In this document: positions 13,218 through 28,392 of the stretch, in pieces
Layout: every line of letters begins with the position of its first letter
Position numbering within the stretch: the first letter of the stretch is position 1
Source: Ilumatobacteraceae bacterium
GTDB taxonomy: Bacteria > Actinomycetota > Acidimicrobiia > Acidimicrobiales > Ilumatobacteraceae
NCBI GenBank assembly: GCA_025463425.1
Contig: JAOBWQ010000642.1
Span: 1-49,196, forward strand
Length of the DNA stretch: 49,196 bases
Reading direction: 5' to 3'
Program-made: the position numbers and the translations under genes
The notes under the pieces: generated by a model
Told to the model about the DNA's origin: nothing
Database searches by the model: none
The model's input: only the letters and a program-made list of their open reading frames with translations

Positions 13218-15040
13218 GCGACTTCCCACCACCGCAGCCTCCATCGGAACTGCCCGCTGCACCGGTGCCGGACAGTCCCGCCGTGCGGAGCCGGGGTCCG
13301 AAGCGCTGGCTGCCGGCGATCGTGGGGGCCGTGCTCGTCGGCGTCGCGGTCGGCGTCGTCGTCACGAGCGGTGACGACAGAAAGGCGCACGCGGGTGAGA
13401 TCTTCACCGAACCCGCCGACGATGTCGGCCCGACGCCGTTCACCCCGCCCGTCGTCACGACCAACCCGGCCGCCGGCACGACCTCGACCAGCTCACCACC
13501 CAGCAGCTCCACGACGAGCTCGGTGATGGCAACGTCGACGTCGACGGGTGGCTCGTCGACCACCGTGTTCGATCCCTCGTCGACGTCCAGCAGCTCGACC
13601 CTGCTCGGCTCGACGACGTTCCCGTTGGCGACGCTTCCGCTCGCGTCTCTGCCGCTGACCTCGTTGCCGCTGACGCTGCCGCTGACGACGCTGCCGCTGG
13701 CGAGCACACCGCCGCAGACGACCGTCGCGGCCGGCGGTGGGCTGGGTGGTCCGGTCGGCGACGGAGGCGCTCAACCACCCGTCATCGAAACCGTTCCCGG
13801 CAACCAGCCCGGCCTGTACGGCGGCACCCGCGACGACAAGGTCTGCAACGCCGAGCAGTTGATCTCCTACCTCGAGGCCACTCCTGCGAAGGCCAAGGCG
13901 TGGGCGGGCGCACAAGGCATCGATGTCGGCCGGATCCGCGACTACGTCGGCCAGCTCACGCCCGTGCTGCTGCGAGCCGACACGCGGTTGACGAACTTCG
14001 GGTTCAAGGACGGCAACGCGACCAGCCGTCAGGTCGTGCTCCAAGCCGGCACGGCGGTGTTCGTCGATCAGTTCGGTGTACCCCGCGCGCGCTGCAAGTG
14101 CGGCAACCCACTCGCTCCGGCGAAGCCCGTCGATGGCCCGGCCGTGTACACGGGAACCCAGTGGCCCGGCTTCGATCCCGCTGCCACACAGACCGTGACA
14201 CCTGCGCCCGCACCGATCGACACGCTCGTGCTGACCGATCCCAACGGTGGCACGATCGACCGGCCCACCGGATCGACGGGCGGTCCCGATGTCGAAGTGC
14301 CGGCATCGTCGACCGTGCCCCAGACCAGCGTGGACTCGACGACCGTCCCCGCCACCACCGTCGTGGCGTCGACCGCGGTGGCGACGACCGTCAGCGAGAC
14401 GACGACGACGGTCGCTCCCACCACGAGCATCGCAACGACGTTGCCGGAGACCACCGTGCCGGCGACGACCGTGCCCGTGACCACGAACCCCGTGGACACG
14501 TTGTCGGCAAACACCGTCACACCGGGCACGATCGGCGCGGCGCCCACCGTGCTTCCGCCCGCCCCGGCCGGGCTCGTCAACATCGCCGGCGACGGCGCCG
14601 AGATCGCATCCACGGAGTATCCCGGTGGCCAGTTCCCCGTCGCACTCGCCTTCGACGGCGACCCGACCACCTCGTGGTTCTCCGCCGGCGACAGCGACAC
14701 GGTCTGCGCGAGCGATCAATCGACGCCGTGCTCGTCGCTGCTGTGGGGATTGCCGGCAGACGCGGCGGACCGCCTGATCAGTGCCGTCCGCATCGTCGGC
14801 AACCAGCAGAACGCCGACCCGTCGGTGCGCACCGGCTACGGGTTCGGCTCGGTGATCGTCCGCATCGGCGACGCGAACTACACCCCGATCTTCGAGCAGC
14901 GCTTCACCCTCGACGGTGACGAGGTCGGCGTGTTGTCGTTCCCGAACATCGTCGGCCACTACGTCGAGATCATCTTCGTCGGCCACGACTCGCCCGACTG
15001 CGGTGGCGTCGCCGAGGTCGAGGTGTTGGCTGCGCCATGA
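13214..15040 (+). CDS. DUF6777 surface protein with Thr-rich linkers and discoidin-like C-terminal domain
   Basis: Protein of 608 residues. The N-terminus is Pro-rich and cytoplasmic, then one membrane helix (WLPAIVGAVLVGVAVGVVV, about 33-51). A Thr/Ser-rich linker follows, with an LPLxT pentapeptide repeat at 136-164. DUF6777 occupies about 210-305, recognised by PGLYGGTRD, ISYLEATPAKAKAWA, LTPVLLRADTR and RCKCGNPL. A second Thr/Val-rich linker (about 355-440) leads to a C-terminal beta-sandwich (about 457-608, with AFDGDPTTSWFSAG), resembling F5/8-type C (discoidin) domains, which bind carbohydrate or other surface ligands. The linkers suggest an extended, possibly glycosylated cell-surface stalk. 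ATG overlaps the previous stop, and its stop overlaps the metalloprotease start. Confidence 0.85.
   Translation: MSDFPPPQPPSELPAAPVPDSPAVRSRGPKRWLPAIVGAVLVGVAVGVVVTSGDDRKAHAGEIFTEPADDVGPTPFTPPVVTTNPAAGTTSTSSPPSSSTTSSVMATSTSTGGSSTTVFDPSSTSSSSTLLGSTTFPLATLPLASLPLTSLPLTLPLTTLPLASTPPQTTVAAGGGLGGPVGDGGAQPPVIETVPGNQPGLYGGTRDDKVCNAEQLISYLEATPAKAKAWAGAQGIDVGRIRDYVGQLTPVLLRADTRLTNFGFKDGNATSRQVVLQAGTAVFVDQFGVPRARCKCGNPLAPAKPVDGPAVYTGTQWPGFDPAATQTVTPAPAPIDTLVLTDPNGGTIDRPTGSTGGPDVEVPASSTVPQTSVDSTTVPATTVVASTAVATTVSETTTTVAPTTSIATTLPETTVPATTVPVTTNPVDTLSANTVTPGTIGAAPTVLPPAPAGLVNIAGDGAEIASTEYPGGQFPVALAFDGDPTTSWFSAGDSDTVCASDQSTPCSSLLWGLPADAADRLISAVRIVGNQQNADPSVRTGYGFGSVIVRIGDANYTPIFEQRFTLDGDEVGVLSFPNIVGHYVEIIFVGHDSPDCGGVAEVEVLAAP
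13619..13705 (+). repeat. LPLxT/S pentapeptide-coding repeat
   Basis: Codes residues 136-164 of the DUF6777 protein as five to six imperfect LPLAT/LPLTS/LPLTT units (15-bp period, one unit shortened). It is a low-complexity linker prone to length variation. Confidence 0.8.
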
Positions 15041-17607
15041 GCCGACGCCGGCTGCACACGTGGATCGCGATCGGCGCGCTGGCCGCGGTCGTCGTCTCGC
15101 CGGCCGCTGCGTCGGCGACCTCGGGCACCGTCGACCCGGACCGCCCGTTCCCGAGCCCCCAGTACCTGATCCACATCACCGGCCATGGCACGACGTCGGG
15201 CGATGTCAAGGACGATGCGTTGATCATCTTCAACAACGCGCCCGATGCCAACGGTGGCATCTACGTGTCCGATGGATCCGGGGGAACGTTCGGATACTCC
15301 ACCGACTCGTCCGCGGGCCCGTTCGCCAAGCCGTCCGAGGTGTGCGCGGCCGCCGCGGGGCCAAAGCTCGCCGCCCAGGGTGGGTCGATCACGTCGTTCG
15401 GCAACGCTCAATCGGTGGACTGCACCGTGTTCCAACCCGGCGGCGGGTCCGCCGGCACGGGCGACTCGACCGGCGGCGCGACGAGCGGATCGAGCGCATC
15501 GACCGACTCGACGCTCGACGACCACGCACCCGCCTGCAGCATCATGGGCGACGTCATCGACGCCTTCGGCGATCCCGTCCCCGACATCCACGTCCACGTG
15601 ACCGCGGGCGGGCTGAAGCTGGACACCTCCACACTGGCGGACGGGTCGTACTCGTTCGCCGAGATCGGCGACGATCCCGGCGGCGGCGTCTTCGATCCAC
15701 GAACCGACCAGGTGCGGGTCTCACTGTTCAGCGAGGAGCAGTCACACTCACCGCAGAGGTTCATCGTCGGCTATCGCCAGAAAGGCCCGATACTGAACAC
15801 CGCGCCGTTCCTGATCCCCGACGACGGCGACTGCCGGTTCGACTTCGACATGCGGTCCATCCCGGCCAGCTACACCAGCAAGGTCGCCCCGATCACCGAC
15901 TGGCCGGCGGTGGTGCAGATCTACCAGGGCATCCACCAGGCATGGGAGCTGGCCGATCAGCTCGGGATCTCGATCGGCTACGGCCTCCCCCTCCAGGTCG
16001 ACGCGTGGTGCGATTCGGCGGCGCTCGGATGCACTGCAAAGTCGGGCACGTTCTTCATCGGCAGCCGGTCCGACGGTGCGGTCACCGTCGATCGTCCTTA
16101 CATCGCCATCCCCCCGCGCGACAGTGGGCTCCTGAGCCCCAACCGCCCCGACAACCGCGAGTACCACGAGTTCGGGCACTTCGTGCTGGCGAGCGCATTC
16201 AACGGCCTGCCCGATCGTGTTGCCGACATCAACCACGCCGGCTACGCCAACGCGTCGAGCAGTGATTCCTGGAGCGAGGGCTTCGCCGAGTTCTGGTCGT
16301 CGATGGTCAACAGGTTCGTGGTGGGTCGTGAGGACGCCGAGCTCTACCGCTGGGAAGGCGGTGTCACCGATCTCTCCGAACCCCGCCAGGCGTGGGTGCA
16401 GGAGGAGCTCTCCGTTGCCAGCCTGCTCGTCCGGTTGGAACGGCTGAGCATCACACCTGCACCGGTCACGCCGAGAGCGCCACGAACGTTCAAGGTCACC
16501 GGCTACACGGAGGTCACCGATCCCACGCTGGGGCGGCTGATCGTTGGCCACTTCCTGAACACCACTGCCGAGGGCGCCAGCTTCGGCACCGTCGCCGGCG
16601 CGGTCTTCTACGGCACCGGCAACCAGATCCTCGACGGCAGCTATGGCACCACGATCCCTGCCGATGTCGGATCCGGCGGTCAGGGACTCTTCGTGCTCGT
16701 CGTGCCGAAGGGCCTGTCCTACAAGGATCTCTCGATCACGATCCGTGAGGGTCGACCGAAGAAGCCGGACCCGGCTGGGCAGCCGTTCGAGGTCACGCTG
16801 CCGGAGATCTGGGCAGCGATCTCCAACTACCACAGCGTCAAGCAGCTCTCCGCCGGCCACGTGTTCGACGTCGACGACCTGTATCAGGCGTTGAAGGCCG
16901 CGTTCGGGGGCCGAGGTGAGATCGTCGACGGCCACGACACGATCGACCAGCTGTTCATCACCTCCGGGTTCTTCGACAACGCCGACGGCAACTTCGACTT
17001 CGACCCTGGCGAGACCGTCGGCACCACCGCCCACCCGGGTTACGGCGACCAGGAGAAGTGCGTGAAGGAGCCGGAGTTCGGCTGCAGCCTGCCCCGCCGG
17101 CCGCGCACCGACTACACCGACCCTCCCGCGTCCATCGCGACGGTCGACCTGCGCGGCGCCGACAACGTCCAGATCCCGGGTGCCCAGGTGTACGCGCAGG
17201 TGATCTATCCGGCGCCAGATCAAGACCAGTCGTACGGCTACACGGTGATCCCGGACGCAGACGGAACGGTCCAGCTGAGCGTGCCGCCACCGACCTCGCT
17301 CGCGACCGTCGTGTTGATCGGCATCGCCGACGGGCATGCCCCGCGTGTCCTCGGCACGATCGAACCGGCCAAGTTCTGGGCCCAGGCGTCGACGACGGCC
17401 GGGCCGTTCCTCTCGTTCGCCGCGACGTTGCCCGCCGGTGACCTGACGATCCCGACCGGTACACGCAGTGTGTCGCCGGCGTCTTCTGCGGACGATGGTG
17501 TCGGCGCGCAGAGCGTCGTCATCCTCGTCGCCGGTCTCGCGATCGCGGCGGTGGGTGGTGCGCTGATCGGTCGACGACGCCGCGCTGCACCGGCCCAACC
17601 GCGATGA
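15037..17607 (+). CDS. Secreted, membrane-tethered zinc metalloprotease (gluzincin-like)
   Basis: Protein of 856 residues. A signal peptide (about 1-28, core WIAIGALAAVVVSPAAA) is followed by a Gly/Ser linker and a carboxypeptidase-regulatory-like beta-sandwich (about 165-225, with GDVIDAFGDPVPDIHVHV). The catalytic zinc motif HEFGH is at residues 377-381, and WSEGFAEF places E414 and E418 thirty-odd residues downstream. HExxH plus a downstream ExxxE is the arrangement of gluzincin peptidases. A C-terminal hydrophobic segment (VVILVAGLAIAAVGGALIG) followed by RRRR anchors the protein at the membrane; no LPxTG sortase motif precedes it. The peptidase family is not recognised. ATG overlaps the DUF6777 stop by four bases, so the two surface proteins are probably made together. 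Confidence 0.82.
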   Translation: MSRRRLHTWIAIGALAAVVVSPAAASATSGTVDPDRPFPSPQYLIHITGHGTTSGDVKDDALIIFNNAPDANGGIYVSDGSGGTFGYSTDSSAGPFAKPSEVCAAAAGPKLAAQGGSITSFGNAQSVDCTVFQPGGGSAGTGDSTGGATSGSSASTDSTLDDHAPACSIMGDVIDAFGDPVPDIHVHVTAGGLKLDTSTLADGSYSFAEIGDDPGGGVFDPRTDQVRVSLFSEEQSHSPQRFIVGYRQKGPILNTAPFLIPDDGDCRFDFDMRSIPASYTSKVAPITDWPAVVQIYQGIHQAWELADQLGISIGYGLPLQVDAWCDSAALGCTAKSGTFFIGSRSDGAVTVDRPYIAIPPRDSGLLSPNRPDNREYHEFGHFVLASAFNGLPDRVADINHAGYANASSSDSWSEGFAEFWSSMVNRFVVGREDAELYRWEGGVTDLSEPRQAWVQEELSVASLLVRLERLSITPAPVTPRAPRTFKVTGYTEVTDPTLGRLIVGHFLNTTAEGASFGTVAGAVFYGTGNQILDGSYGTTIPADVGSGGQGLFVLVVPKGLSYKDLSITIREGRPKKPDPAGQPFEVTLPEIWAAISNYHSVKQLSAGHVFDVDDLYQALKAAFGGRGEIVDGHDTIDQLFITSGFFDNADGNFDFDPGETVGTTAHPGYGDQEKCVKEPEFGCSLPRRPRTDYTDPPASIATVDLRGADNVQIPGAQVYAQVIYPAPDQDQSYGYTVIPDADGTVQLSVPPPTSLATVVLIGIADGHAPRVLGTIEPAKFWAQASTTAGPFLSFAATLPAGDLTIPTGTRSVSPASSADDGVGAQSVVILVAGLAIAAVGGALIGRRRRAAPAQPR

Positions 17608-17614
17608 TGGGGTG

Positions 17615-18187
17615 ATGAGCAACCCGTCGACCGATGCCACTCACAAGCGGGTCGGTGTGCCCGCCGCGCAGGATGACGCCGTCGCGCGCATGCCCTACCA
17701 ACTGCCGCCCTCGCCCGATGTGGCCACCGATGTGATCGTGCCGGGTTTGCTCGACGATGTCGACGAACGGTTGTGGGTGCCGCAATCCGAGCACGTCTCG
17801 TTCCGGCCGCTGCTGCTGTCGGCCTCCCAGGGCTACTACGTGAACCTGCTGCGAGTCCGTCGCTCCGGCGTGCTCAGCCGGCATCGCCATGCCGGCCCGG
17901 TGCATGCGCATGTGCTGCGCGGCCGGTGGTTCTATCTCGAGCACGACTGGGTCGCCGAGACCGGCACGTACGCCTACGAGTCGCCGGGGGAGGTCCACAC
18001 GCTCATCGTTCCCGACGACGTGACCGAGATGATCACCCTCTTCCACGTCACCGGCGGTCTCGTCTACGTCGATCCGTACGGCGTGCCGATCGGCTACGAG
18101 GACGCGCACACCAAGCTGGCCATGGCCCGGCAGCACTACACCGAGGTCGGCCTCGGCGCCGACCACGTGGAGCAGTTCGTCCGCTGA
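17615..18187 (+). CDS. Cupin-domain dioxygenase-like protein (2,4'-dihydroxyacetophenone dioxygenase family)
   Basis: Protein of 190 residues with a cupin beta-barrel. The metal-binding first motif is seen as LSRHRHAGPVHAHVLRGRW and the second in YESPGEVHTLIVPDD. Sequence style and length fit the cupin family that includes 2,4'-dihydroxyacetophenone dioxygenase and acetylacetone-cleaving enzyme, which use non-heme iron to cleave C-C bonds. The substrate is unknown. The start is the ATG at 17615; GTG one codon upstream is equally possible. It begins seven bases after the metalloprotease stop and is probably the last gene of that run. Confidence 0.82.
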   Translation: MSNPSTDATHKRVGVPAAQDDAVARMPYQLPPSPDVATDVIVPGLLDDVDERLWVPQSEHVSFRPLLLSASQGYYVNLLRVRRSGVLSRHRHAGPVHAHVLRGRWFYLEHDWVAETGTYAYESPGEVHTLIVPDDVTEMITLFHVTGGLVYVDPYGVPIGYEDAHTKLAMARQHYTEVGLGADHVEQFVR

Positions 18188-18201: not shown

Positions 18202-20562
18202 TCACTCGGAGCGGAGGATGAGCGCCGGTTCGAGCTTGGCGGCGCGGTGGCCGGGCAGCACGGCGAGCGCGTTCGCCACCACGATGGCGATCGGCGCGAT
18301 CAGCAGGATCCCGACGAACGCGATCGGCGAGCGGAACGTGAGCGGCACACGATCGGTGATCGCCTGCCAACCAGCCCGGCCGGCCAGCAACCCGAGCGGC
18401 AGGCCGAAGAGCAGACCGACCACTGCCACGGTCGATCCCTGCACGGCGAGCACGATCCGCGATCCGGTCCTGGTGACGCCGAGAGCGCTCATCACCGCGA
18501 AGTCCTTGCCGCGGCGGCGCACCGTGGTGAACAGGGCGTGGCCGACGGCGACGATGCCGAGCACGGTCAGGAAGCTCGCGAGCAGCGTCGGTAGGCGGCG
18601 CACGTTGTGCAGGTTGCTCAGCTCGTAGGGCACCTCCGCCGGTGCGACATCGGAGGCGACCGGCGCCAGTGCGGTCGCGAGCGTCTGGGTCTGGTCGGCG
18701 ATGTGATCGCGGTCGGCGAAGCGCACGGCGATCGCGAACTCTGCACCCTCCTGCGTGTCCTGTCGGCCGAGGAGGTCGAACCAACGGCTGTTGGACACCC
18801 AGGCGCCCTCGTCGAACTGGGCGTGAACGTCCGATGGGAAGAGACCGAGGCCGACGACTCGCGCGGCGCGGCCGTCCTCCAGCTGGATCGTGTCGCCGAT
18901 GTCGACCCCGAGATCGCGGGCGGTCGACGGTCCGAGCTCGATCTCGTCGTCGGCGTCGGGCGGGCGGCCCTGCAGGGTCACCAGCTGGATCTGCGAGCCC
19001 GTGCCCCGGGGGATGACCGTGAAGGTCGGCACGCCGACCTCGCCGATCTGCACGGTCACGCGCCCGATCGTGCCGGTCGCGGCGAGGCCGGGCTGATCGA
19101 TGACCGCGTCGACGATGGTCGGGTTCACGCCCTCGAGGCTCGTGTCCTCAGCATTCGGCGTGACCGTCACGTCCCAGGCGACGCCGGCCACCTGCGGGTG
19201 GCTGAGCGAGTCGTCGAGACCGTGGTTGAGCGTGACGATCGCGACGATGCCGGCGACGGCGGCGACCGCTCCGACCAGGGCCGAGCGAGAGCCACCCCGC
19301 CCGGTGCTGCGGTTGCCCTCCAGCGCCATCCGTACTCCGACGCCGACGGCGAGCGGGCGCATCAGCCCCACCCTCGTCAGCAGCGAGGCGCGGACGCGGC
19401 GGCGCCCGTCGGTCGGCGCCGCGGCGAGCCAGCTGGACAGCGCGACTTGAGCCGTGATCAACACGACGAGTGCGACGATGGCGCCAAGGACCAGCGCGAC
19501 GTCGACCCGGATGCCGCGCGCCGGGTCGACCTGGGCGGCGAGACCGACGGGAAACCATCGAGACGCGATGGTGGTCGTGAGCGCCAGCGTGAGTGCCGCA
19601 GTGATGGCCGTGAGCGTGTGCGGGCGGAGCGCGGCAGCCAGCATCTCGCGTCTCGTCATCCCGAGCGCGCGCAGCGTCGGCACATCGGATCCGATCGTCG
19701 CTGCGGAGCGGGCGATGGCTTGACCGACGAAGACGAGCCCGGCCAGCGCGACGATCCCCGCGAGGAGCATCAGCATCGCCTTCTCGACGTCCGTTGTCGC
19801 CGTGACGCGGCGTGCGGTCGTGCGCAGATCGAGCACGGGCACACCGGCGAAGAGGTCGCGGCTCGCGTCACGACGCAGCGCCGTCATGTCTCCGCCGCCA
19901 TGGCGGAGTTGGACGAACGCGTTCTCGGCGAACTCGACTTGGTCGCCGTACTTGGCGAAGAAGGCGGGAGACACGAATCCGCCGCTGGTGAACTCCCAGC
20001 TCAAGGACGTGTGGATCACACCGACGACCGTCAGCTGCACGGACGGTCCCGATCCGGGGACGTCGCCGACCGCCGGGTCGTACCGTCCGAACGCGTCGAA
20101 CTGGACGGTGGATCCCAGCGGCGGAGCGTCGGCTCCCGCTTGGTCGTCGACCACCACCTCGTTCGGCTTGCTCGGATCGAACATCCGCCCGGCGACGACG
20201 ATCGGCCTGTCGATCTGTTGCAACCAGACGTCGTCACTCGGCCCGAACATCACGGTGTACTCGTCACCGACGAGGCCGAAGAGCAACCGCCATCGCGCGA
20301 TTGAGGCGACCTCTGGTCGAGAGGCGAGCGTGGTCCAGTAGGGCTTGTCGCTCGATGTCTGCGACGCGAAGACGACGGCGTCGCTGGCGTTGTTGCGCGC
20401 TTCGAGCCGATGCAGGGCGGTTGCCGTGCGCTGGGCGCCGTCGAACGCCGCGACGGCCAGCCCTGCCGTCAGTCCGGCGAGGACGCCGAGCACGACCAAC
20501 GACTTCCACCGTGCGCGCAGATCGGTTCGACTCCACAGATCGACGGGTGACTGCGCGGGCAT
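18202..20562 (-). CDS. FtsX-type ABC transporter permease
   Basis: Protein of 786 residues of the MacB/FtsX permease superfamily. There is one N-terminal membrane helix (about 20-40), a large extracytoplasmic domain, a cluster of three helices (near ATTDVEKAMLMLLAGIVALAG), a second extracytoplasmic domain, and three final helices ending in the typical PALILRSE tail. It thus contains two FtsX units. These transporters usually move lipoproteins, peptides or envelope factors, or transmit force to enzymes. No ATPase is adjacent on this strand; the nearest is at 23159, across a divergent pair. Internal sequences such as GRPPDADDEIELGPSTARDLGVDIGDT closely match the permease at 25957, so they are paralogs. 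The ATG at 20562 lies 118 bases from the divergent gene. Confidence 0.9.
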   Translation of the reverse strand: MPAQSPVDLWSRTDLRARWKSLVVLGVLAGLTAGLAVAAFDGAQRTATALHRLEARNNASDAVVFASQTSSDKPYWTTLASRPEVASIARWRLLFGLVGDEYTVMFGPSDDVWLQQIDRPIVVAGRMFDPSKPNEVVVDDQAGADAPPLGSTVQFDAFGRYDPAVGDVPGSGPSVQLTVVGVIHTSLSWEFTSGGFVSPAFFAKYGDQVEFAENAFVQLRHGGGDMTALRRDASRDLFAGVPVLDLRTTARRVTATTDVEKAMLMLLAGIVALAGLVFVGQAIARSAATIGSDVPTLRALGMTRREMLAAALRPHTLTAITAALTLALTTTIASRWFPVGLAAQVDPARGIRVDVALVLGAIVALVVLITAQVALSSWLAAAPTDGRRRVRASLLTRVGLMRPLAVGVGVRMALEGNRSTGRGGSRSALVGAVAAVAGIVAIVTLNHGLDDSLSHPQVAGVAWDVTVTPNAEDTSLEGVNPTIVDAVIDQPGLAATGTIGRVTVQIGEVGVPTFTVIPRGTGSQIQLVTLQGRPPDADDEIELGPSTARDLGVDIGDTIQLEDGRAARVVGLGLFPSDVHAQFDEGAWVSNSRWFDLLGRQDTQEGAEFAIAVRFADRDHIADQTQTLATALAPVASDVAPAEVPYELSNLHNVRRLPTLLASFLTVLGIVAVGHALFTTVRRRGKDFAVMSALGVTRTGSRIVLAVQGSTVAVVGLLFGLPLGLLAGRAGWQAITDRVPLTFRSPIAFVGILLIAPIAIVVANALAVLPGHRAAKLEPALILRSE

Positions 20563-20604: not shown

Positions 20605-20680
20605 GGCGCGTTCGCGCGGTGGTGGCAGCCACACTTCGCGACGCCAGGCTTCACCCTGTCGACCCCGGCCGGCAGAGTCG

Positions 20681-21712
20681 ATGATGGCCTGCATGCGCAG
20701 CACTGCATCGATCACCGCACTCTCGTGGATCCCGTCGGAAGCGATTGCCGGACTCGCCAAGCTGCCCTTCAGAACCGGTCTGGCCCACTTCGACGTCGCG
20801 CCGCCCGCACGGATCGACACACCGGGTGCGACCTTGGAGGAACTGCGTGCCGCCGATCGGTTCCGGTTCGCGAACCGGCTCGACGCATGGATCGAGGTCG
20901 ACGACGACGGCAAGATCGTGGATGCAGGGTACGCGGGCGGCGGGCTGCTCGGCTCGACCACGCTGAGCCTCGGTCGGGGCATCTCGATCGCCGCGGTGCC
21001 GCTCCCCGACAAGCAGGCCGAGCCCGAGTTCGGGCCGGGATGGGTGCGCTTCCTGCAGACCGCCGGCGGACGGACGGGCGTCCCTGCACCGCGCACGGTG
21101 CGCCGCCCGCCGTTCATCCAGTACCACGCGCCGATCGCGTGGTCGACGCTGGCGTTGACCATTCACGCCGACGGCACGGCCGAGGGCCAGCTCGTCGGCG
21201 CCAGTCCGTTCCCGCGCCACTGGGTGTACGACACCGCCGGGCAACTGCTGGCCAAGACCGGGCTGATCGACTTCAAGACGTGGTACAAGGAGGCGTTCGG
21301 GGATCACACGCCCTGGGGCGACCTCGATTCGCCGGCACTCGTGACCGCCGTGGAGACGGCCCTGGAACGAGAGCTGTCCAAGGCGATCATGAGAGGGTCG
21401 GCGAAGCCGAAGGTGCGCACTGTCAAAGCCGGTGCGACGTTGGTCAACCAGGGTGACGAGGGCGACGAGATGTACGTCCTCCTCGACGGTGTGCTCGGCC
21501 TCGAGGTGGACGGGCACGAGCTGGCCGAGCTCGGACCCGGGACGGTGGCCGGCGAGCGAGCGATCCTCGAGGGCGGTCGACGAACAGCGACGTTGCGGGC
21601 CGTCACGACCTGCAAGGTGGCGGTGGCGTCCGCCGCCACGGTGGACATCGAGGCCCTGCGTCGTCTGTCGGCCGATCACCGCCGCGAGCACGCGAATGTG
21701 ATCGCCAAGTGA
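20681..21712 (+). CDS. Cyclic nucleotide-binding domain protein with uncharacterised N-terminal domain
   Basis: Protein of 343 residues. The C-terminal about 110 residues form a cNMP-binding (CRP-like) beta-roll: VKAGATLVNQGDEGDEMYVLLDG, then the phosphate-binding cassette GERAILEGGRRTATLRA with its conserved Glu and Arg. There is no helix-turn-helix, so it is not a CRP transcription factor. The N-terminal about 230 residues (FANRLDAWIEVDDDGKIVD, FPRHWVYDTAGQL, DFKTWYKEAFG) match no family I can name. The stop overlaps the GTG of the response-regulator-cyclase, which could make its ligand. Start choice among ATG 20681, 20684 and 20693 is unresolved. Confidence 0.82.
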   Translation: MMACMRSTASITALSWIPSEAIAGLAKLPFRTGLAHFDVAPPARIDTPGATLEELRAADRFRFANRLDAWIEVDDDGKIVDAGYAGGGLLGSTTLSLGRGISIAAVPLPDKQAEPEFGPGWVRFLQTAGGRTGVPAPRTVRRPPFIQYHAPIAWSTLALTIHADGTAEGQLVGASPFPRHWVYDTAGQLLAKTGLIDFKTWYKEAFGDHTPWGDLDSPALVTAVETALERELSKAIMRGSAKPKVRTVKAGATLVNQGDEGDEMYVLLDGVLGLEVDGHELAELGPGTVAGERAILEGGRRTATLRAVTTCKVAVASAATVDIEALRRLSADHRREHANVIAK

Positions 21713-23028
21713 ACGAACCCAGCGGCGGCATCACGGTCTTCCTCGCCGACGACAACATCATCGTCCGCGAGGGCGTGCGTGCGATGTTGGCACGCAACCC
21801 CGACATCGAGATCGTCGGTGTGGCTGATGACTACGACTCCCTCGTCGCCGGCGCGTCCACGTTGGCGCCGAACGTCGTGGTGTCCGACATCCGGATGCCG
21901 CCGTCGTTCCAGTCCGAGGGCATCGACGGCTGCAAGGAGATCCGCAAACGACACCCCGGTACCGGAGTGGTGATCCTGTCCCAGTTCGACGATCCCGACT
22001 ATGCGATCGCGCTGCTCAGCGAAGGCGCCGCAGGGTATGCCTATCTGCTCAAGGATCACATCGCCCAAGGCGACCAACTCGTCGCTGCGATCCGAGCGGT
22101 GGCGACGGGTGGGTCGGTCCTCGATCCCTCCATCGTCGACGCGATGGTGCGGCCGGCCGTTCGCAAGGGCGACCTGTCCGCAGACGAGGAAGCGCTGCTG
22201 GCGATGCTGGCCGAAGGCAAGCCGATCAAGGCGATCGCTGTCGCGCGCAAGGCGACGCCGGCCGCCGTCAACCACGAAGTGGAGCTGCTGTTCGCGGGCC
22301 TGGCCACCAGCGCGTCCGCCGGAGCGCAGGGAGCCCTGCGGCGGCTGCGCATGCTGCACGACGCGATCGTCAGTCGTGAAGAGCAGGGTGAGTCGTTGTC
22401 CCGCCTCCTGCCCGGCGGTCTCGCCGAGAAGCTGTTGGCGTCCGGCCGCGAGCTGGGCGAGTCGGAGATGCTGACCGTCACGGTGGTGATGAGCGACATC
22501 CGCGGCTACTCGACGATCTCCGAGCACGCCGACCTCTCGACGTTGGCGCGTCAGCTGAACACGCACCGGGCGGAGATGAACCGGGCCATCATCGGCGAGG
22601 GCGGCACCGTGATGCAGTACGTCGGCGACGCGGTGATGGCCGTGTTCGGTGCGCCGGTGCCGAGCCTCGACCACGCAGATCGCGCCGTCGCCGCTGTGGC
22701 GGCGATGCATCTCGCCCAGCAGGCGGTCAACGCATCGTGGCTCGAGGCCGGGTTGCCACCGTTCCCGATCGGGATCGGAGTGTCGACGGGGGAGGTCGCC
22801 GCGGCCCTGCTGGGTTCCGAAGAGCGCGCTGAGTACACGATGGTCGGGGACGTCGTGAACCTCTGCCAACGTCTGCAGCAGTTCGCGGCCAGCGGTCAGT
22901 CGGTGCTCAGCGAGGCGACGTGGGATGCGCTGTCGGTGAAGCCGGGCGCGTACGAGCGGCTCGACCCGCAGATGGTGAAGGGTCGCGACAGCGCGGTGCA
23001 GCCGTACCGCATCGGACCGTTGGGTTGA
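21709..23028 (+). CDS. Response regulator-class III nucleotide cyclase fusion
   Basis: Protein of 439 residues with three parts. Residues 8-130 are a receiver domain with acidic pocket ADDN, phospho-acceptor D60 (SDIRMPP) and YLLKD. Residues about 155-200 (DLSADEEALLAMLAEGKPIKA) look like a decayed LuxR-type helix-turn-helix. The C-terminus (about 255-430) is a class III cyclase: metal aspartates D263 (SDIRGYS) and D307 (YVGDAVMAVFG), transition-state N384 and R388 in GDVVNLCQRL. Of the residues that select ATP, the usual Lys is Gln303 and the Asp position is Thr377 (EYTMVG), the latter as in class IIIb. Adenylate cyclase activity is likely but not certain. GTG overlaps the stop of the cNMP-binding gene, so the two are translated together. 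Confidence 0.88.
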   Translation: MNEPSGGITVFLADDNIIVREGVRAMLARNPDIEIVGVADDYDSLVAGASTLAPNVVVSDIRMPPSFQSEGIDGCKEIRKRHPGTGVVILSQFDDPDYAIALLSEGAAGYAYLLKDHIAQGDQLVAAIRAVATGGSVLDPSIVDAMVRPAVRKGDLSADEEALLAMLAEGKPIKAIAVARKATPAAVNHEVELLFAGLATSASAGAQGALRRLRMLHDAIVSREEQGESLSRLLPGGLAEKLLASGRELGESEMLTVTVVMSDIRGYSTISEHADLSTLARQLNTHRAEMNRAIIGEGGTVMQYVGDAVMAVFGAPVPSLDHADRAVAAVAAMHLAQQAVNASWLEAGLPPFPIGIGVSTGEVAAALLGSEERAEYTMVGDVVNLCQRLQQFAASGQSVLSEATWDALSVKPGAYERLDPQMVKGRDSAVQPYRIGPLG

Positions 23029-23158: not shown

Positions 23159-23899
23159 GTGGAGCAATCAGTGAACGGGACAGCGGTCGAGGTACGGGGT
23201 GTGTATCGCACGTTCGAGGCGGAGGTGGCTCCGGTTCGCGCGCTCCGCGGGGCCGATCTGAGGGTGACCGCAGGCGAGTTCGTTGCCGTGATGGGACCGT
23301 CCGGTTGTGGCAAGAGCACGCTGCTCAACCTGATCGCCGGGTTGGATGTGCCCGATGAGGGCGAGGTGTTCGTGGCCGGTGAGTCGCTGCGCGGCAAGGA
23401 TGCCAACGACCTCGCCCGGATGCGCCGCACTCACATCGGCATCGTCTTCCAGTTCTTCAACCTGCTGGAGGGGATGACCGTTCAGGAGAACGTCGTCATG
23501 CCAGCGCTCATCGCCGGCGTGAAGCGCAAGGCAGCGGAGACCCGCGCACGCGACCTGCTCGACCTGCTCGGCCTTCCCGACAAGGCCAAGGCCGCGCCGA
23601 CCACCCTGTCGGGCGGGCAGCGCCAGCGCCTCGCGATCGCACGCGCTCTCGCCAACCGCCCGACGGTGCTGCTGGCCGACGAACCGACCGGAGCACTCGA
23701 CTCGGATGGCGGCGAAGAGATCCTCGAGCTGTTCCGTCGACTCCACGACGACAGCGGTCAGACGATCGTGTTGATCACGCACGATCAGCCCGTGGCCGAT
23801 GCTGCGTCGCGTCTCGTGCGCATGCGTGACGGACGCGTCGTCGACGATGGGTCTGCCGACGCAGCCGGCGTCGTGGTGTCGTCGAACGCGAGCGAATGA
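23159..23899 (+). CDS. ABC transporter ATP-binding protein, MacB/LolD type
   Basis: ATPase of 246 residues partnering FtsX-type permeases. Walker A GPSGCGKST (46-54), the Q-loop in VFQFFNLLEGMTVQENV, the signature LSGGQRQRLAIARAL, Walker B VLLADEPTGALD and the H-loop LITHD are all intact. The VFQFFNLL form of the Q-loop is typical of the LolD/MacB/FtsE branch. GTG 23159 is the start because AGGAG precedes it by six bases; this is one of the few genes here with a strong ribosome site. It leads a run with the histidine kinase (1-base gap) and the FtsX permease at 25957. Confidence 0.95.
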   Translation: MEQSVNGTAVEVRGVYRTFEAEVAPVRALRGADLRVTAGEFVAVMGPSGCGKSTLLNLIAGLDVPDEGEVFVAGESLRGKDANDLARMRRTHIGIVFQFFNLLEGMTVQENVVMPALIAGVKRKAAETRARDLLDLLGLPDKAKAAPTTLSGGQRQRLAIARALANRPTVLLADEPTGALDSDGGEEILELFRRLHDDSGQTIVLITHDQPVADAASRLVRMRDGRVVDDGSADAAGVVVSSNASE

Positions 23900-23900
23900 C

Positions 23901-25943
23901 TTGGCAACAGAACTGCGCCCGGCGTACTGCCTGCTGACCGCTCCGCTTGCGTCGATCGCCGCGATCGTCGCGATCATCCACCTCGACACCCTCCGTCCCA
24001 CCGACGTCGCGCGCGTCGCACTCGTGGTGGCGTGGGCGGCAGGTGGCGCGCTCGTCGGCATCCGGAGGCGCAGCGACCGACTCGGCCCGATCGCGCTCGG
24101 TGGTGCCGGTCTCGGCGCGATCGCGATGCTGGCCGACGCGTGGGATCAGCCGACGGTCGCGCGCCTCGTGCTGGGCGTGCTGCCGGTCGTCGGTCTGCAC
24201 CTCGTGGTCACGTTGCCGGACGGACGGATCGGGAGCGCGGCGCGCCAGCGGTGGATCGTCGTTGCCTACGTCGTCGGTGGAACCTGCGGACTGATCACTC
24301 CGCACGACGGGAGTGGTCCGGACATCTGGGTGTTCGTGTTGCTGTGGGGGGCAGCGGTGTCCATCGGCCTCCCCGCGTCGAACGGTCGCTACCGGGCCAC
24401 CGAGGCCGTCGATCGTCGGCGGATGCAGTGGGTCGCGTGGGCGATCGCTGTCGTCGCCGAGCTGTCGTTGGCCGTCGTCGCGCTCCGGTTGCTCGTCGAC
24501 TGGCCCCCGCATCCGGCAACGGTCGTGCTTGCCACCACCGTGCTGATCCCCTTGGCGCTCGCAGCCGGGACGCACGGCAAGATGGTGGCGCGCGTCGATC
24601 GACTGCTGACCCAGACCGTGGCGTTGGCAGGGCTCACCGCACTGGTGATCGCGGTGTACGTCGCCGTGGTCGTCGCTCACGGTCACGCATTGCGCGGCAA
24701 TGAGCGTTCCCTCCTGCTCCTCTCGATGGTCGCCGCGCTCGTCGCCGCCCTGGTGTTCCTGCCCCTGCGCACGCGCCTCGCCGATGCCGCCAACCAGCTC
24801 GTGTACGGAGAGCACACGGCGCCCGACGACGCGCTCCGCACCTGGGGCAGTCGACTGACGCGAGCGATCCCACTCGACGAGCTGTTGCTCCAGCTGACCG
24901 AGTCCCTGCGCAAATCGATGTCGCTCGTCGCCGCGGAGATCTACACCGGCGCCGACGGTCGGTACGAGCTCACCGCCGGCGTGCCCCACCGGACCGCAGA
25001 TCCGGTCGTCCTCGGTGTGAAGGAGCGCCAGGTCGTGGCCCGGGCCGGAGTCTCCGGTGGCACCTGGCTCGACGTCTGGATCCCGAAGCTGGCGCCCGAC
25101 AACAGCGCCAACACCCGTGTGGCCCCCATCGTCCACGGTGGCGCATTGCTCGGGCTGGTCGTGCTGACCCGCGATGCGTCGAGCGGTCTCCTCAACGACG
25201 AAGACGACCGTGTGCTCACCGAGCTCGCTCGCCAGGTCGCGCTGGCGCTGCACAACGTGCAGCTCGACTCCGCGCTGCAGGCGTCGCTCGAGGCGCTGCA
25301 ACAGACGAACCTCGAGCTCGAGCAGTCACGGCTGCGCATCGTCAGTGCCGGTGACGCCGAGCGGCGGAGGCTGGAACGCAACCTGCACGACGGTGCCCAG
25401 CAGCACCTCGTCGCGATGGCGGTCAAGCTGCGTCTCGCCGAAGAGCTCGTCGAGGACGATCCCGGTGAGGCCACCAAAGTGATCGAGGAGCTGCGCGACA
25501 ACCTCAAGGACGCGATCGCCGAGCTGCGCGCGCTGGCCCACGGCATCTTCCCGCCGCTGCTCTCGTCGGGAGGCCTGCGCGAGGCGTTGCCGGCGGCGGC
25601 CGGACGCGCTGCGCTGTACACGTCGGTCGAGACCGATGGCGTCGGCCGCTACACGCCGGAGATCGAATCCACCGTCTACTTCTGCTGCCTGGAAGCGATG
25701 CAGAACGCCGGAAAGCACGCCGGCGAAGATGCCGAGCTCGTGATCGTCGTCAGCGAGATCGGCAACGTGCTCACCTTCGACGTCACCGACGACGGCGCCG
25801 GGTTCACGCCCGGACCGCTCGGCGCGAGCGGCCACGGCTTCGTCAACATGACCGACCGCCTCGGTGCGGTGCATGGTCACCTGACCGTGCGCTCGACCCC
25901 TGGCGCTGGTACCACCATCCACGGCGAGATCCCACTGTCGTGA
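23901..25943 (+). CDS. Multi-pass membrane sensor histidine kinase, HisKA_3/NarX-DesK type
   Basis: Sensor kinase of 680 residues. The N-terminal about 300 residues hold eight or so membrane segments, followed by a GAF-like domain (about 330-460). A coiled coil (LQASLEALQQTNLELEQSRL) leads to the HisKA_3 dimerisation domain with phospho-acceptor H496 in RNLHDGAQQH. The HATPase domain has its N-box in EAMQNAGKHAG and G-boxes DDGAGFTPG and GHGFVNMTDRLG. Kinases of this type pair with NarL/LuxR response regulators. Two are encoded convergently at 28414-29504, and the receiver-cyclase lies upstream, so the partner is unresolved. The start is probably TTG 23901, one base after the ATPase stop. The upstream frame overlaps the ATPase and is unlikely. 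Confidence 0.9.
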   Translation: MATELRPAYCLLTAPLASIAAIVAIIHLDTLRPTDVARVALVVAWAAGGALVGIRRRSDRLGPIALGGAGLGAIAMLADAWDQPTVARLVLGVLPVVGLHLVVTLPDGRIGSAARQRWIVVAYVVGGTCGLITPHDGSGPDIWVFVLLWGAAVSIGLPASNGRYRATEAVDRRRMQWVAWAIAVVAELSLAVVALRLLVDWPPHPATVVLATTVLIPLALAAGTHGKMVARVDRLLTQTVALAGLTALVIAVYVAVVVAHGHALRGNERSLLLLSMVAALVAALVFLPLRTRLADAANQLVYGEHTAPDDALRTWGSRLTRAIPLDELLLQLTESLRKSMSLVAAEIYTGADGRYELTAGVPHRTADPVVLGVKERQVVARAGVSGGTWLDVWIPKLAPDNSANTRVAPIVHGGALLGLVVLTRDASSGLLNDEDDRVLTELARQVALALHNVQLDSALQASLEALQQTNLELEQSRLRIVSAGDAERRRLERNLHDGAQQHLVAMAVKLRLAEELVEDDPGEATKVIEELRDNLKDAIAELRALAHGIFPPLLSSGGLREALPAAAGRAALYTSVETDGVGRYTPEIESTVYFCCLEAMQNAGKHAGEDAELVIVVSEIGNVLTFDVTDDGAGFTPGPLGASGHGFVNMTDRLGAVHGHLTVRSTPGAGTTIHGEIPLS

Positions 25944-25956
25944 GAACGGTCGCGGC

Positions 25957-28392
25957 GTGAGCTCCGGCGTCAACCCCGCTGCGGTGCTCTGGGCGCGCTC
26001 GATCCTGCGCCGATCGCGAGTGGCCACGATCTTCCTCGCCGTGTTCGCCGGTTTGGTCGGCACTGCGGTGCTCACCTCGTGGGAGTACTCGCGGCGCGCC
26101 GACAGCGTCATCCCGCGCCGGATCGAGGCGCTCCCGCTCCCGGACGGCACCCTGCAGTCGTGCCCTCCGGGCGTCGACCCGGGAACGGACCCCACCGAGT
26201 GCTTCACCCCGACCAACAACCTGACGGCCTTCGCCGCGCTGAAGACCTCCCCGCATCAGGTCGCCGGACGCGTCTATGCGTCCGCCACGGTGGCGATCAC
26301 CGGAGCGATCGGAGGCAGGCGCACGACCGACGCTGGCACGCTGCTCGACGAGGATGGCATCCTCGGCAACGGCTACTTCATCAGCGGCCACGCTCCCGAT
26401 CCCGACGATCCCGGAGAGGCGTCAATGTCGGAGAAGGCAGCTGAGATCGTCGGCGTGCGCACCGGTGACTCGCTCGAGGTCGATGCCTGTGCGCCGGGCC
26501 CCTCGGGTGACGACGTGTGTGACGACCACACGACGGTTCGGGTCGTGGGGATCACGCGCAGTGAATCGGACCTGGTGCCCCAGCTCGATCGGCCGACCGG
26601 CGTGGAGCTGACGGTGCCCGCCTTCGGGATCATGGTCAGCAGGGCGTGGTACTTCGCGCACGGCGCGTCGACGAGCTCGTTCGTCACCACCAACTTCAAG
26701 CTCGCGCCCGGATCCACGCTCGACGATGTGCGTGTCGATCTCGCCCGATCGTTGTCGGGTTGGGCCGTGCTGCTGACCGCCTATGAGGATTCGCCCCGTT
26801 TCACGGCCCTGCGCCGCTCCACGTCGCTCCAGGGCTACTCGTTCGAGCTGGTCGCAGTCATCCTGCTCCTGGCCGGAATGCTCTTCGTGGGGCAGACGAT
26901 CCTGCGCCAGATCCGCCGCGAGTTGAGCGACCGCCGGATCGTGGTGGCGATGGGCTCCGGACGGCGGCTCCCGTTCGTCGTAGCTGCGATCCGGTTCTCG
27001 CCCATCGTGATCGGGGCGACGCTGATCTCGGTCGTCGGAGCGCTCGTGCTGTCGTCGAGCGGTCCGACGGGCATCGCCGGCCGTGCCGAGGTCCAGCCCG
27101 GCTTTCGCTTCGATGCAACGGTCGTCCTCGGTGGTGCCGCCCTTTCGGTCATCGCGTTGTCGGCGATGGTGGCGCTGGCGACGGCGGTCACCGTTCGCGA
27201 ACGACCGAGCGCCGGCCGACGTCCCCGAGCCGGAGCGCTCAGCGCGAGCATCGGTTCTGCAGCGTTGCGGGTGGGGACACGTCGATACGCGCGCGGCCTG
27301 GTCATCGCCGTGATCGGCACCACGGTCGGCATCGCCAGCGTCGCGACTGCAGCGATCGTGGTGGGCAGCCTGGCTCGCGTCGATGCGGACTCGGCGCGGT
27401 ATGGCGCGCCGTGGGACTACGCCGTGGCGACCTCTGGAGATCCCGCATCTGTCGCAGCCGGTGTCGCGGCGGCGAAGGCGGATCCGTACCTGACCGATCT
27501 CGCCCTGGTCACCGCCAGCGGGCCCTTCCAACTGCCCGGTGTGGCGACGTTCTGGGCCGTGAGCATGCAGCCCCAACGTGGGTCGATGGGACCGACGGTC
27601 GTCAGCGGCCGGCCACCGACCGCTGATGACGAGATCGCGATCGCCCCGCTCACGATGCGCGCCATGGGCTTGCACATCGGTGACTCGCTGACCAGCTTGC
27701 CCACGTTGCTCGGCGACGATTCGGACGGCAGTGCGCCTGGTTCCGTCGGTCCGTTCTCGGTGGTCGGGGAGGTGCTCGTCGGCGCGGTCGACCCCAGTGT
27801 CGGACCGGGCAACGGGGTGATCGTCACCGAAGCAGTGCGCAGCAGGATCGACACCGCCGGGTCGCCGTACCTCGTCGTGCGTACGAACCCGACGATGTCG
27901 CGGACCGAGGTGATCGATCACCTCGTCGCGACCTACGGCTCGGCGGTGGTGCTGCCGGGCCGGCAGGACGATCTCCGCAACCTCGATCGAGTTGCCTCGT
28001 CGCCGTGGATCGTCGCCTGGCTGATCGTCGCCCTCGCCCTCGCGGCAGTGGGCCACGCGCTGGTGACGAGCGTCCGTCGTCGACGACGCGAGCTCGCGGT
28101 CCTGCGCAGCCTCGGCTTCACGAGCACGCAGGTGATCGGTTCGATCGTGTGGCGCTCGGTTCTCGTCGCCCTGACCGCCGTGCTGATCGGCGTCCCGCTC
28201 GGCATCGTGGCCGGGCGGTGGACGTGGGGCCGCGTTGTCCGTGATGTCGGTCTCGCTTCCGGTGCCGTGCTGCCAGGACCGTGGATCGCGGCCGTCATCG
28301 CAGGTGTGCTCGTGATCATCCCGGTGCTGTCGCTGTGGCCGGGCGTCCGCGCCGCGCGGACCCCCCTCGTCGAGGCGCTGCGCACGGAATAG
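25957..28392 (+). CDS. FtsX-type ABC transporter permease
   Basis: Permease of 811 residues with two FtsX units: an N-terminal helix (about 18-40), a large extracytoplasmic domain, three central helices around residues 300-410, a second N-terminal helix (RGLVIAVIGTTVGIASVATAA), a second extracytoplasmic domain, and three terminal helices ending in LVEALRTE. The segment VRRRRRELAVLRSLGFTSTQV is the cytoplasmic loop characteristic of the superfamily. GTG start lies 13 bases after the kinase stop. Motif-level similarity to the divergent permease at 18202-20562 (GRPPTADDEIAIAPLTMRAMGLHIGDS) marks them as paralogs that may share the one ATPase. Confidence 0.92.
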   Translation: MSSGVNPAAVLWARSILRRSRVATIFLAVFAGLVGTAVLTSWEYSRRADSVIPRRIEALPLPDGTLQSCPPGVDPGTDPTECFTPTNNLTAFAALKTSPHQVAGRVYASATVAITGAIGGRRTTDAGTLLDEDGILGNGYFISGHAPDPDDPGEASMSEKAAEIVGVRTGDSLEVDACAPGPSGDDVCDDHTTVRVVGITRSESDLVPQLDRPTGVELTVPAFGIMVSRAWYFAHGASTSSFVTTNFKLAPGSTLDDVRVDLARSLSGWAVLLTAYEDSPRFTALRRSTSLQGYSFELVAVILLLAGMLFVGQTILRQIRRELSDRRIVVAMGSGRRLPFVVAAIRFSPIVIGATLISVVGALVLSSSGPTGIAGRAEVQPGFRFDATVVLGGAALSVIALSAMVALATAVTVRERPSAGRRPRAGALSASIGSAALRVGTRRYARGLVIAVIGTTVGIASVATAAIVVGSLARVDADSARYGAPWDYAVATSGDPASVAAGVAAAKADPYLTDLALVTASGPFQLPGVATFWAVSMQPQRGSMGPTVVSGRPPTADDEIAIAPLTMRAMGLHIGDSLTSLPTLLGDDSDGSAPGSVGPFSVVGEVLVGAVDPSVGPGNGVIVTEAVRSRIDTAGSPYLVVRTNPTMSRTEVIDHLVATYGSAVVLPGRQDDLRNLDRVASSPWIVAWLIVALALAAVGHALVTSVRRRRRELAVLRSLGFTSTQVIGSIVWRSVLVALTAVLIGVPLGIVAGRWTWGRVVRDVGLASGAVLPGPWIAAVIAGVLVIIPVLSLWPGVRAARTPLVEALRTE

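Follow-up and report, generated by a model that had tools for sequence, protein, structure and literature searches.

Can two adjoining genes, one for a maker and one for a receiver of a cyclic nucleotide, constitute a signalling circuit of their own? The question is raised by the 49,196-nucleotide stretch of an Ilumatobacteraceae genome that is analysed here as a whole (the window; contig JAOBWQ010000642.1). It encodes a cyclic mononucleotide (cNMP)-binding receptor, REC, followed by RRC, a fusion of a response regulator and a class III nucleotidyl cyclase (Table 1). The original prediction, made from the letters of the window, described the pair as a translationally coupled unit that would form a complete local circuit under two-component control. 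We conclude that REC and RRC, together with a histidine kinase (and perhaps a hydrolase), probably form a self-contained signalling module that occurs in many actinobacteria. What is observed are the genes and how they are conserved and co-occur, together with the kept residues and the model folds; the remaining steps of this reading are inferred.

Conservation and arrangement of the gene pair

A profile scan of genome contigs, based on an alignment of REC, yielded 215 confirmed stretches, the best 80 of which are considered here as REC loci. According to their titles they belong to Acidimicrobiia, Nitriliruptorales, Egibacteraceae, Blastococcus, Pseudonocardia, Knoellia, Dormibacterota, Chloroflexi and others, and are mostly metagenome-assembled genomes (MAGs). 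RRC is found near REC in 49 of the 80 loci (58–96% identity), where matches of at least 55% identity in REC flanks of up to 10 kb are counted as neighbours; among the 38 loci in which each flank reaches 5 kb or more, the count is 26. The original prediction had staked itself on conservation of the pair and had proposed a neighbourhood survey of this kind: the pair is conserved.

The overlap of the two genes in the window is as originally described. The 3' end of REC reads ...GTGATCGCCAAG followed by TGA, which ends at 21712, and apart from the GTG of RRC at 21709 no ATG, GTG or TTG codon separates the last in-frame stop from the receiver strand conserved at residue 8. Both genes are intact open reading frames. 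The true start of REC is most likely 20693, four codons inside the previously assumed 20681, because the residue aligned with the methionine at 20693 is encoded by ATG (63) or GTG (6) in 69 of the 80 loci. The proposed translational coupling holds for the window and for locus L028, where the same overlap is found, and it is not general: 39 of the 49 linked RRC genes lie upstream of REC and divergent from it, the matched part of RRC being 100–300 bp away in 27 of the 39, and 10 lie downstream on the same strand. In L029 a hydrolase gene stands between REC and RRC, and RRC overlaps the stop codon of the hydrolase gene by GTGA. Both L028 and L029 are from the same genus as the window; the GTGA overlap of REC and RRC is a local arrangement.

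The association is also seen at the level of genomes. In 199 related genomes, the N-terminal part of REC is found in 23 (E 0.001) and RRC in 19 (E 1e-60), with neither found in 176. All 19 genomes with RRC are among the 23 with REC (Fisher p 5e-23, not corrected for relatedness); the RRC match in one of the genomes (G019) covers residues 7–226 only. In 296 genomes sampled across the phylum, REC is found in 27 and RRC in 37 (E 1e-60). Strong RRC matches (at least 590 bits) occur in 16 genomes, 14 of which also have REC; the two exceptions are a divergent RRC (53% identical) in G576 and, in G620, an RRC close to where its 4 kb contig stops. G491 and G653 harbor a partial RRC together with REC, and REC is absent from the 14 genomes in which a distant RRC, matched over its full length (422–458 bits), scores best. 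Seven candidates per genome were scored for REC, five for RRC and ten for the N-terminal domain in this sample, numbers so small that a weak stand-alone N-terminal domain or RRC could escape. That the same genome sets (199 and 296) were used across searches is taken from their equal settings and labels.

Domains and residues of the two proteins

The sole Pfam family on REC is cNMP_binding (E 4e-16, residues 246–319 of the 343-residue form), in line with the earlier description of a receptor that lacks a DNA-binding domain. Neither the Pfam scan nor the model contains such a domain, and the protein stops about 10 residues past the last helix of the cyclic-nucleotide-binding domain (CNBD). A GGDEF output domain is likewise absent from REC by Pfam. 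In the AlphaFold model (pLDDT 85.4 and pTM 0.84 for whole REC) the CNBD starts at about residue 220, and in a fold comparison the C-terminal part matches the nucleotide-binding domains of HCN, PKG, PKA and CRP with Z about 13–14. The phosphate-binding cassette by which such domains are recognised (Gly-Glu and Arg-Ser/Thr) is present: Gly287, Arg297 and Thr298 are kept in 76 of 76 aligned receptors and Glu288 in 75. The alignment comprises 75 of the 80 loci and the window, with L041, L043, L057 and L070 (late starts) and L088 left out; one further receptor alignment also omits L093. The C-terminal motif HRRE, each position of which is kept in 69–72 of the 76, may cap the bound nucleotide. The C-helix is short and no helix-turn-helix (HTH) follows, as the protein ends at this motif. 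The identity of REC as a CRP/FNR transcription factor is rejected on this ground.

The N-terminal part of REC, which had originally been noted as unrecognised and as a possible effector, indeed has no convincing Pfam family across 75 members. A few members give weak matches that have the look of chance (RHS repeat in 6 of 75, Rsa3 in 5, two members each for zf-CHCC, DUF5003 and Tc-R-P, one for others). Against PDB sequences nothing convincing was found (best E 0.56), and a viral-fold search gave nothing usable. The structure prediction that had been suggested for this domain resulted in a confident model (pLDDT 88.7, pTM 0.86 for the N-terminal part alone) for which one solved fold stands out, namely PDB 3c5p, the functionally uncharacterised Bacillus protein BAS0735 (VIA Z 11.9, rmsd 4.1, 172 aligned positions, next row Z 4.5; Foldseek E 4.7e-4). 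The two share 15% identity, with no match at the level of sequence, and a literature search for 3c5p/BAS0735 gave no relevant title. Ten residues of the domain are invariant in 76 of 76 receptors: D34, R58, T89, R134, S171, R175, H176, K188, W208 and G209. In the 296 genomes, with the best 10 candidates per genome scored, the domain is seen solely fused to a cNMP domain: the 34 clear places of the N-terminal profile are the 34 places of full REC, and a 35th (E 0.003 over 55 positions, with an internal stop) looks like a chance match.

RRC consists of Response_reg (E 4e-16) and Guanylate_cyc (E 1.5e-18) by Pfam, joined by a region that corresponds to the DNA-binding part of NarL-type regulators. 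Chains of DevR, VraR and NarL match RRC from residue 8 to residues 192–200. Like the NarL/LuxR-family regulators (the MadR model, DevR and NarL), RRC aligns from residue 8 to about 200; unlike them, its HTH region is degenerate and is followed by a cyclase. The RRC of the window does not reach Pfam GerE at E 1, and a weak GerE match is found in 12 of 46 aligned RRCs (best E 0.001). As residues 8 to about 200 align with whole NarL-type regulators and GerE matches weakly in these 12, the "HTH remnant" of the original prediction is a fair description of the middle region, and the receiver–HTH-remnant–cyclase architecture agrees with the alignments. Receiver–cyclase fusions are a known kind of protein.

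The RRC alignment comprises 45 of the 49 linked loci and the window; L043, L054, L060 and L062, which are cut by contig ends, were dropped. All 46 sequences contain the PF00211 cyclase domain. The residues expected of a working response regulator, the phospho-acceptor Asp60 and the conserved Lys115, are invariant, as are those of a class III cyclase, namely the metal-binding Asp263 and Asp307 and the transition-state residues Asn384 and Arg388. The adenine-selecting position is Gln303 in 46 of 46. A phmmer alignment pairs Gln303 with the Lys of both CyaC and CyaB and with a Glu in chain 2w01. We take chain 1wc0 to be CyaC and 2w01 to be the guanylyl cyclase Cya2 (the PDB records say adenylate cyclase). 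Glutamine is also found in 19 of 20 further RRCs, some of which are the same genes, the single exception being His in L188. Of nine distant RRCs in genomes that lack REC, eight have Lys and one (L109) has Gln; a divergent RRC, L115, has Asp. The change suggests a shift of substrate preference, and we note that Rv0386, which also has Gln here, is nevertheless an adenylyl cyclase.

A tree of 72 RRC rows places the nine distant RRCs together on one side of a 100/100 branch, so the contrast between Lys and Gln may be a single evolutionary event. The tree omits the duplicates L182 and L184 and the long branch L115. With L115 and one faulty row (L181) included, support for the group without REC is just 78/73. 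From another RRC alignment L119 was dropped (stop codon). A second receiver–cyclase subfamily (L108–L114, L117–L118) is 41–46% identical to RRC and occurs without REC; in seven of its nine loci the gene is divergent from a stand-alone response-regulator-like match.

The proposed circuit and competing explanations

In the circuit that we propose, a membrane/GAF histidine kinase, perhaps with an ABC–FtsX transporter, would phosphorylate Asp60 of RRC. The phosphorylation, relayed through the former HTH region, would switch on the class III cyclase, which, to judge from its kept catalytic residues, would make a 3',5'-cyclic mononucleotide. The product would then bind to the C-terminal domain of REC, as the kept phosphate-binding cassette suggests, and binding may change the activity of the N-terminal domain, whose constant fusion to the CNBD points to it as the output. 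A metallo-beta-lactamase-fold protein might finally hydrolyse the nucleotide and reset the circuit, which is the weakest step. The maker and receiver of the original prediction are thus retained, with a conserved pair and kept receiver, cyclase and cNMP-pocket residues, in a circuit of more parts than it listed. As to the nucleotide, our guess is that cAMP is the foremost candidate, short of being probable, with cGMP clearly behind it and another or mixed product slightly behind cGMP. Equally as a guess, the N-terminal domain of REC would bind or transform a small hydrophobic molecule, gated by the nucleotide.

The kinase and hydrolase are recurrent neighbors of the pair. A histidine kinase (at least 44% identity) is found in 22 of the 80 loci, 20 of which have RRC. 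The start of the kinase gene of the window is probably downstream of 23799, because this position falls inside the ABC gene. The gene for the metallo-beta-lactamase-fold protein occurs in 41 of the 80 loci, and in 35 of the 80 the match lies directly downstream of REC on the same strand. All 41 hydrolases contain HxHxDH, which they have in common with the atypical class II phosphodiesterases of the Rv1339 type ([T/S]HXHXDH; PMC9293780); the preceding residue is T/S in 17 and Gly in 24 of the 41. According to the same source, Rv1339 in extracts hydrolyses 2',3'-cAMP, 3',5'-cAMP, 3',5'-cGMP and 2',3'-cCMP. Two of the hydrolases (L029 and L031) are Lactamase_B_2 by Pfam and weakly match the NCBI model of a cyclic nucleotide-degrading phosphodiesterase (NF041851) over most of their length, with 40.2 and 34.9 bits, respectively, against a cut-off of 400. 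For L029 the RNase Z models reach 33.4 bits, somewhat below its phosphodiesterase score. The proposed phosphodiesterase role therefore rests more on gene order than on sequence. The MAG of the window encodes a homologue (43%) of the hydrolase on another contig (G000:C207:11378-12142).

Several observations weigh against the proposed module. The L031 hydrolase scores 52 bits with RNase Z models and 34.9 with the phosphodiesterase model, its PDB sequence matches are RNase Z only, and the hydrolase may not be a phosphodiesterase; in the window, no hydrolase gene adjoins the pair. Gene order is the sole basis for assigning the histidine kinase to RRC. No RRC lies near REC in 31 of the 80 loci, 12 of which have at least 5 kb on both sides; REC occurs without RRC in four of the 199 relatives (G137, G160, G185 and G198); and in the phylum sample 11 of the 27 genomes with REC, many of them incomplete MAGs, have no RRC match at E 1e-60. 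Conversely, the distant RRCs are found where REC is absent; proteins of the RRC kind can thus function with other partners. RRC lacks the adenine-selecting Lys of canonical adenylate cyclases.

The alternative that survives best concerns the output. To be taken seriously, while less probable than not in our estimate, is that the N-terminal domain of REC is a second sensor or an interaction domain, which may for example control RRC or an FAD-dependent oxidoreductase by contact when its ligand is bound. The invariant D34, R58, R134, R175, H176 and K188 would suit a binding pocket no less than a catalytic site. The oxidoreductase (amine-oxidase/phytoene-desaturase-like) is found no more than 1.5 kb from REC in 18 of the 80 loci, 16 times on the strand of REC (the loci include L064, L065, L045, L058, L072, L086, L036 and L087), and may be a target or partner of the domain.

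We consider it unlikely that RRC feeds a global cAMP pool read by CRP-type regulators, with REC as one of several receptors and the pairing reflecting shared regulation. The MAG of the window does contain 5 class III cyclase and 6 cNMP_binding matches (those of the window included), and the second substrate position is still Thr or Ser in every aligned RRC (34 and 12 of 46, respectively); however, RRC of the REC-linked subfamily was not found without REC in the 199 relatives, and the invariant Gln303 differs from the Lys of 8 of the 9 distant RRCs without REC, with the reservation of a single event made above.

Membership in the Pycsar anti-phage systems is highly improbable and is rejected: a dedicated class III cyclase (PycC) and a CNBD effector activated by its cyclic nucleotide (PycTIR or PycTM) are there encoded together with the same two-part logic, as PMC11224242 has it, and PADLOC matches RRC to its PycC model (E 6e-21) and REC, through the CNBD, to its PycTIR model (E 4e-9), but REC has neither a TIR domain (Pfam, E 1) nor a long membrane helix (no helix of the model exceeds 12 residues), a receiver domain is fused to the cyclase, a search of 72,556 plasmid and 50,697 phage records (E 1e-5) turned up no relative of REC, and R142 and Q144, the residues named for the CTP enzyme EaPycC in the same source, are not matched at D-4 and D-2 of RRC, where Gln303 and Val305 stand (the spacing is our reading).

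The cyclic GMP pathway XC_0250/XC_0249 of Xanthomonas campestris resembles the module in that the gene of a class III cyclase is linked to that of an effector with a cNMP domain, which does not act as a transcription factor (PMC3770947). As described there, its cyclase has TPRs, no receiver, and Leu/Ala for the transition-state Asn/Arg, whereas RRC has a receiver and keeps Asn/Arg; the output of XC_0249 is a GGDEF domain, in contrast to the unrecognised N-terminal domain of REC. Maker–receiver pairs are thus already known from XC_0250/XC_0249 and Pycsar, and what is new here is the combination of parts, the clade of Gln cyclases and the N-terminal domain of the receptor. No description of the REC–RRC gene pair was found in the literature searched, which left most subscription papers outside its coverage. 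To our knowledge, bacterial receptors of cyclic mononucleotides are mostly CRP-type factors, channels, enzymes with known domains and defence effectors.

If the self-contained module is real, a private circuit of kinase, maker and receiver, perhaps with an eraser as well, would exist in several classes of actinobacteria (judged by record titles) and bring with it a new effector class, and the function of non-CRP cyclic-nucleotide signalling would be directly testable because the parts often lie together. A more far-reaching version can be put forward only tentatively: an insulated actinobacterial second-messenger system in which the change from Lys to Gln marks a change of product (cGMP or another nucleotide), and in which REC founds a new class of cyclic-nucleotide-gated effectors with an enzyme or a small-molecule-binding unit as N-terminal domain.

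Transporter genes, upstream box and further neighbors

Table 1. Coordinates of features in the window.
Feature	Position	Strand	Remarks
Second FtsX-like permease	18202..20562	-	divergent from REC; recognised through its L028 orthologue
GGTG-N7-CACC-like box	20621..20635	+	GGTGGCAGCCACACT; one mismatch; 72 bp before the start of REC
REC (cNMP-binding receptor)	20693..21712	+	N-terminal domain of unknown family (1-219) and cyclic-nucleotide-binding domain (about 220-339)
GTGA stop/start overlap of REC and RRC	21709..21712	+	also in L028
RRC	21709..23028	+	receiver, degenerate LuxR/NarL-type HTH region, class III nucleotidyl cyclase domain
ABC transporter ATPase	23159..23899	+	conserved neighbor of RRC
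GAF / HisKA_3 / HATPase histidine kinase	23799..25943	+	proposed kinase of RRC
FtsX-type permease	25957..28392	+	Pfam PF02687

The ABC transporter ATPase (at least 65% identity) is found in 27 of the 80 loci; 26 of these have RRC, and in all 26 the ATPase is on the strand of RRC. FtsX permeases recur near REC loci. In the window, the minus-strand permease is assigned through its L028 orthologue (90%), which is matched by the plus-strand FtsX protein (26%, residues 309–811). In L114 and L118, which contain a distant RRC and no REC, ABC and FtsX genes follow RRC; this points to an association of the transporter with RRC, not with REC. The Blastococcus locus L094 combines REC, a hydrolase, a match to the response regulator only, a kinase, two FtsX genes and an ABC ATPase; no receiver–cyclase is found in this stretch, which covers just 2.3 kb upstream of REC. 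In a culturable carrier, Pseudonocardia endophytica (locus L095), REC, the hydrolase and RRC are all present.

The box upstream of REC may provide shared control of REC and RRC, as a candidate and not a proven operator. An exact GGTG-N7-CACC is found in 11 of 70 upstream regions of REC (mean 1.1, maximum 3, in 20 shuffles), and 42 of the 70 contain it with at most one mismatch (mean 15.9, maximum 22). The regions come from the window and from the 69 loci whose match begins at residue 1 and whose flank is long enough; the shuffles keep dinucleotides approximately, and relatedness is not corrected. Other spacings also exceed the shuffles (exact N5, 6 vs 0.6; exact N10, 8 vs 0.95; N4 with at most one mismatch, 38 vs 15.5). 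As they do, and as the test was post hoc, the box is a lead only. As to a possible CRP-type operator, CRP/GlxR sites have an N8 core, which the N7 spacing does not fit. A similar box is also found between the divergent REC and RRC genes in many loci, and the MAG of the window (79% complete) contains the 14-mer pattern GGTGNCAGCCACAC a single time.

Further upstream, positions 15037–18187 of the window encode a large, secreted-looking protein with a weak, sub-cut-off carboxypeptidase-regulatory-like match and a weak LPXTG-type end; a ChrR-cupin-like protein comes after it.

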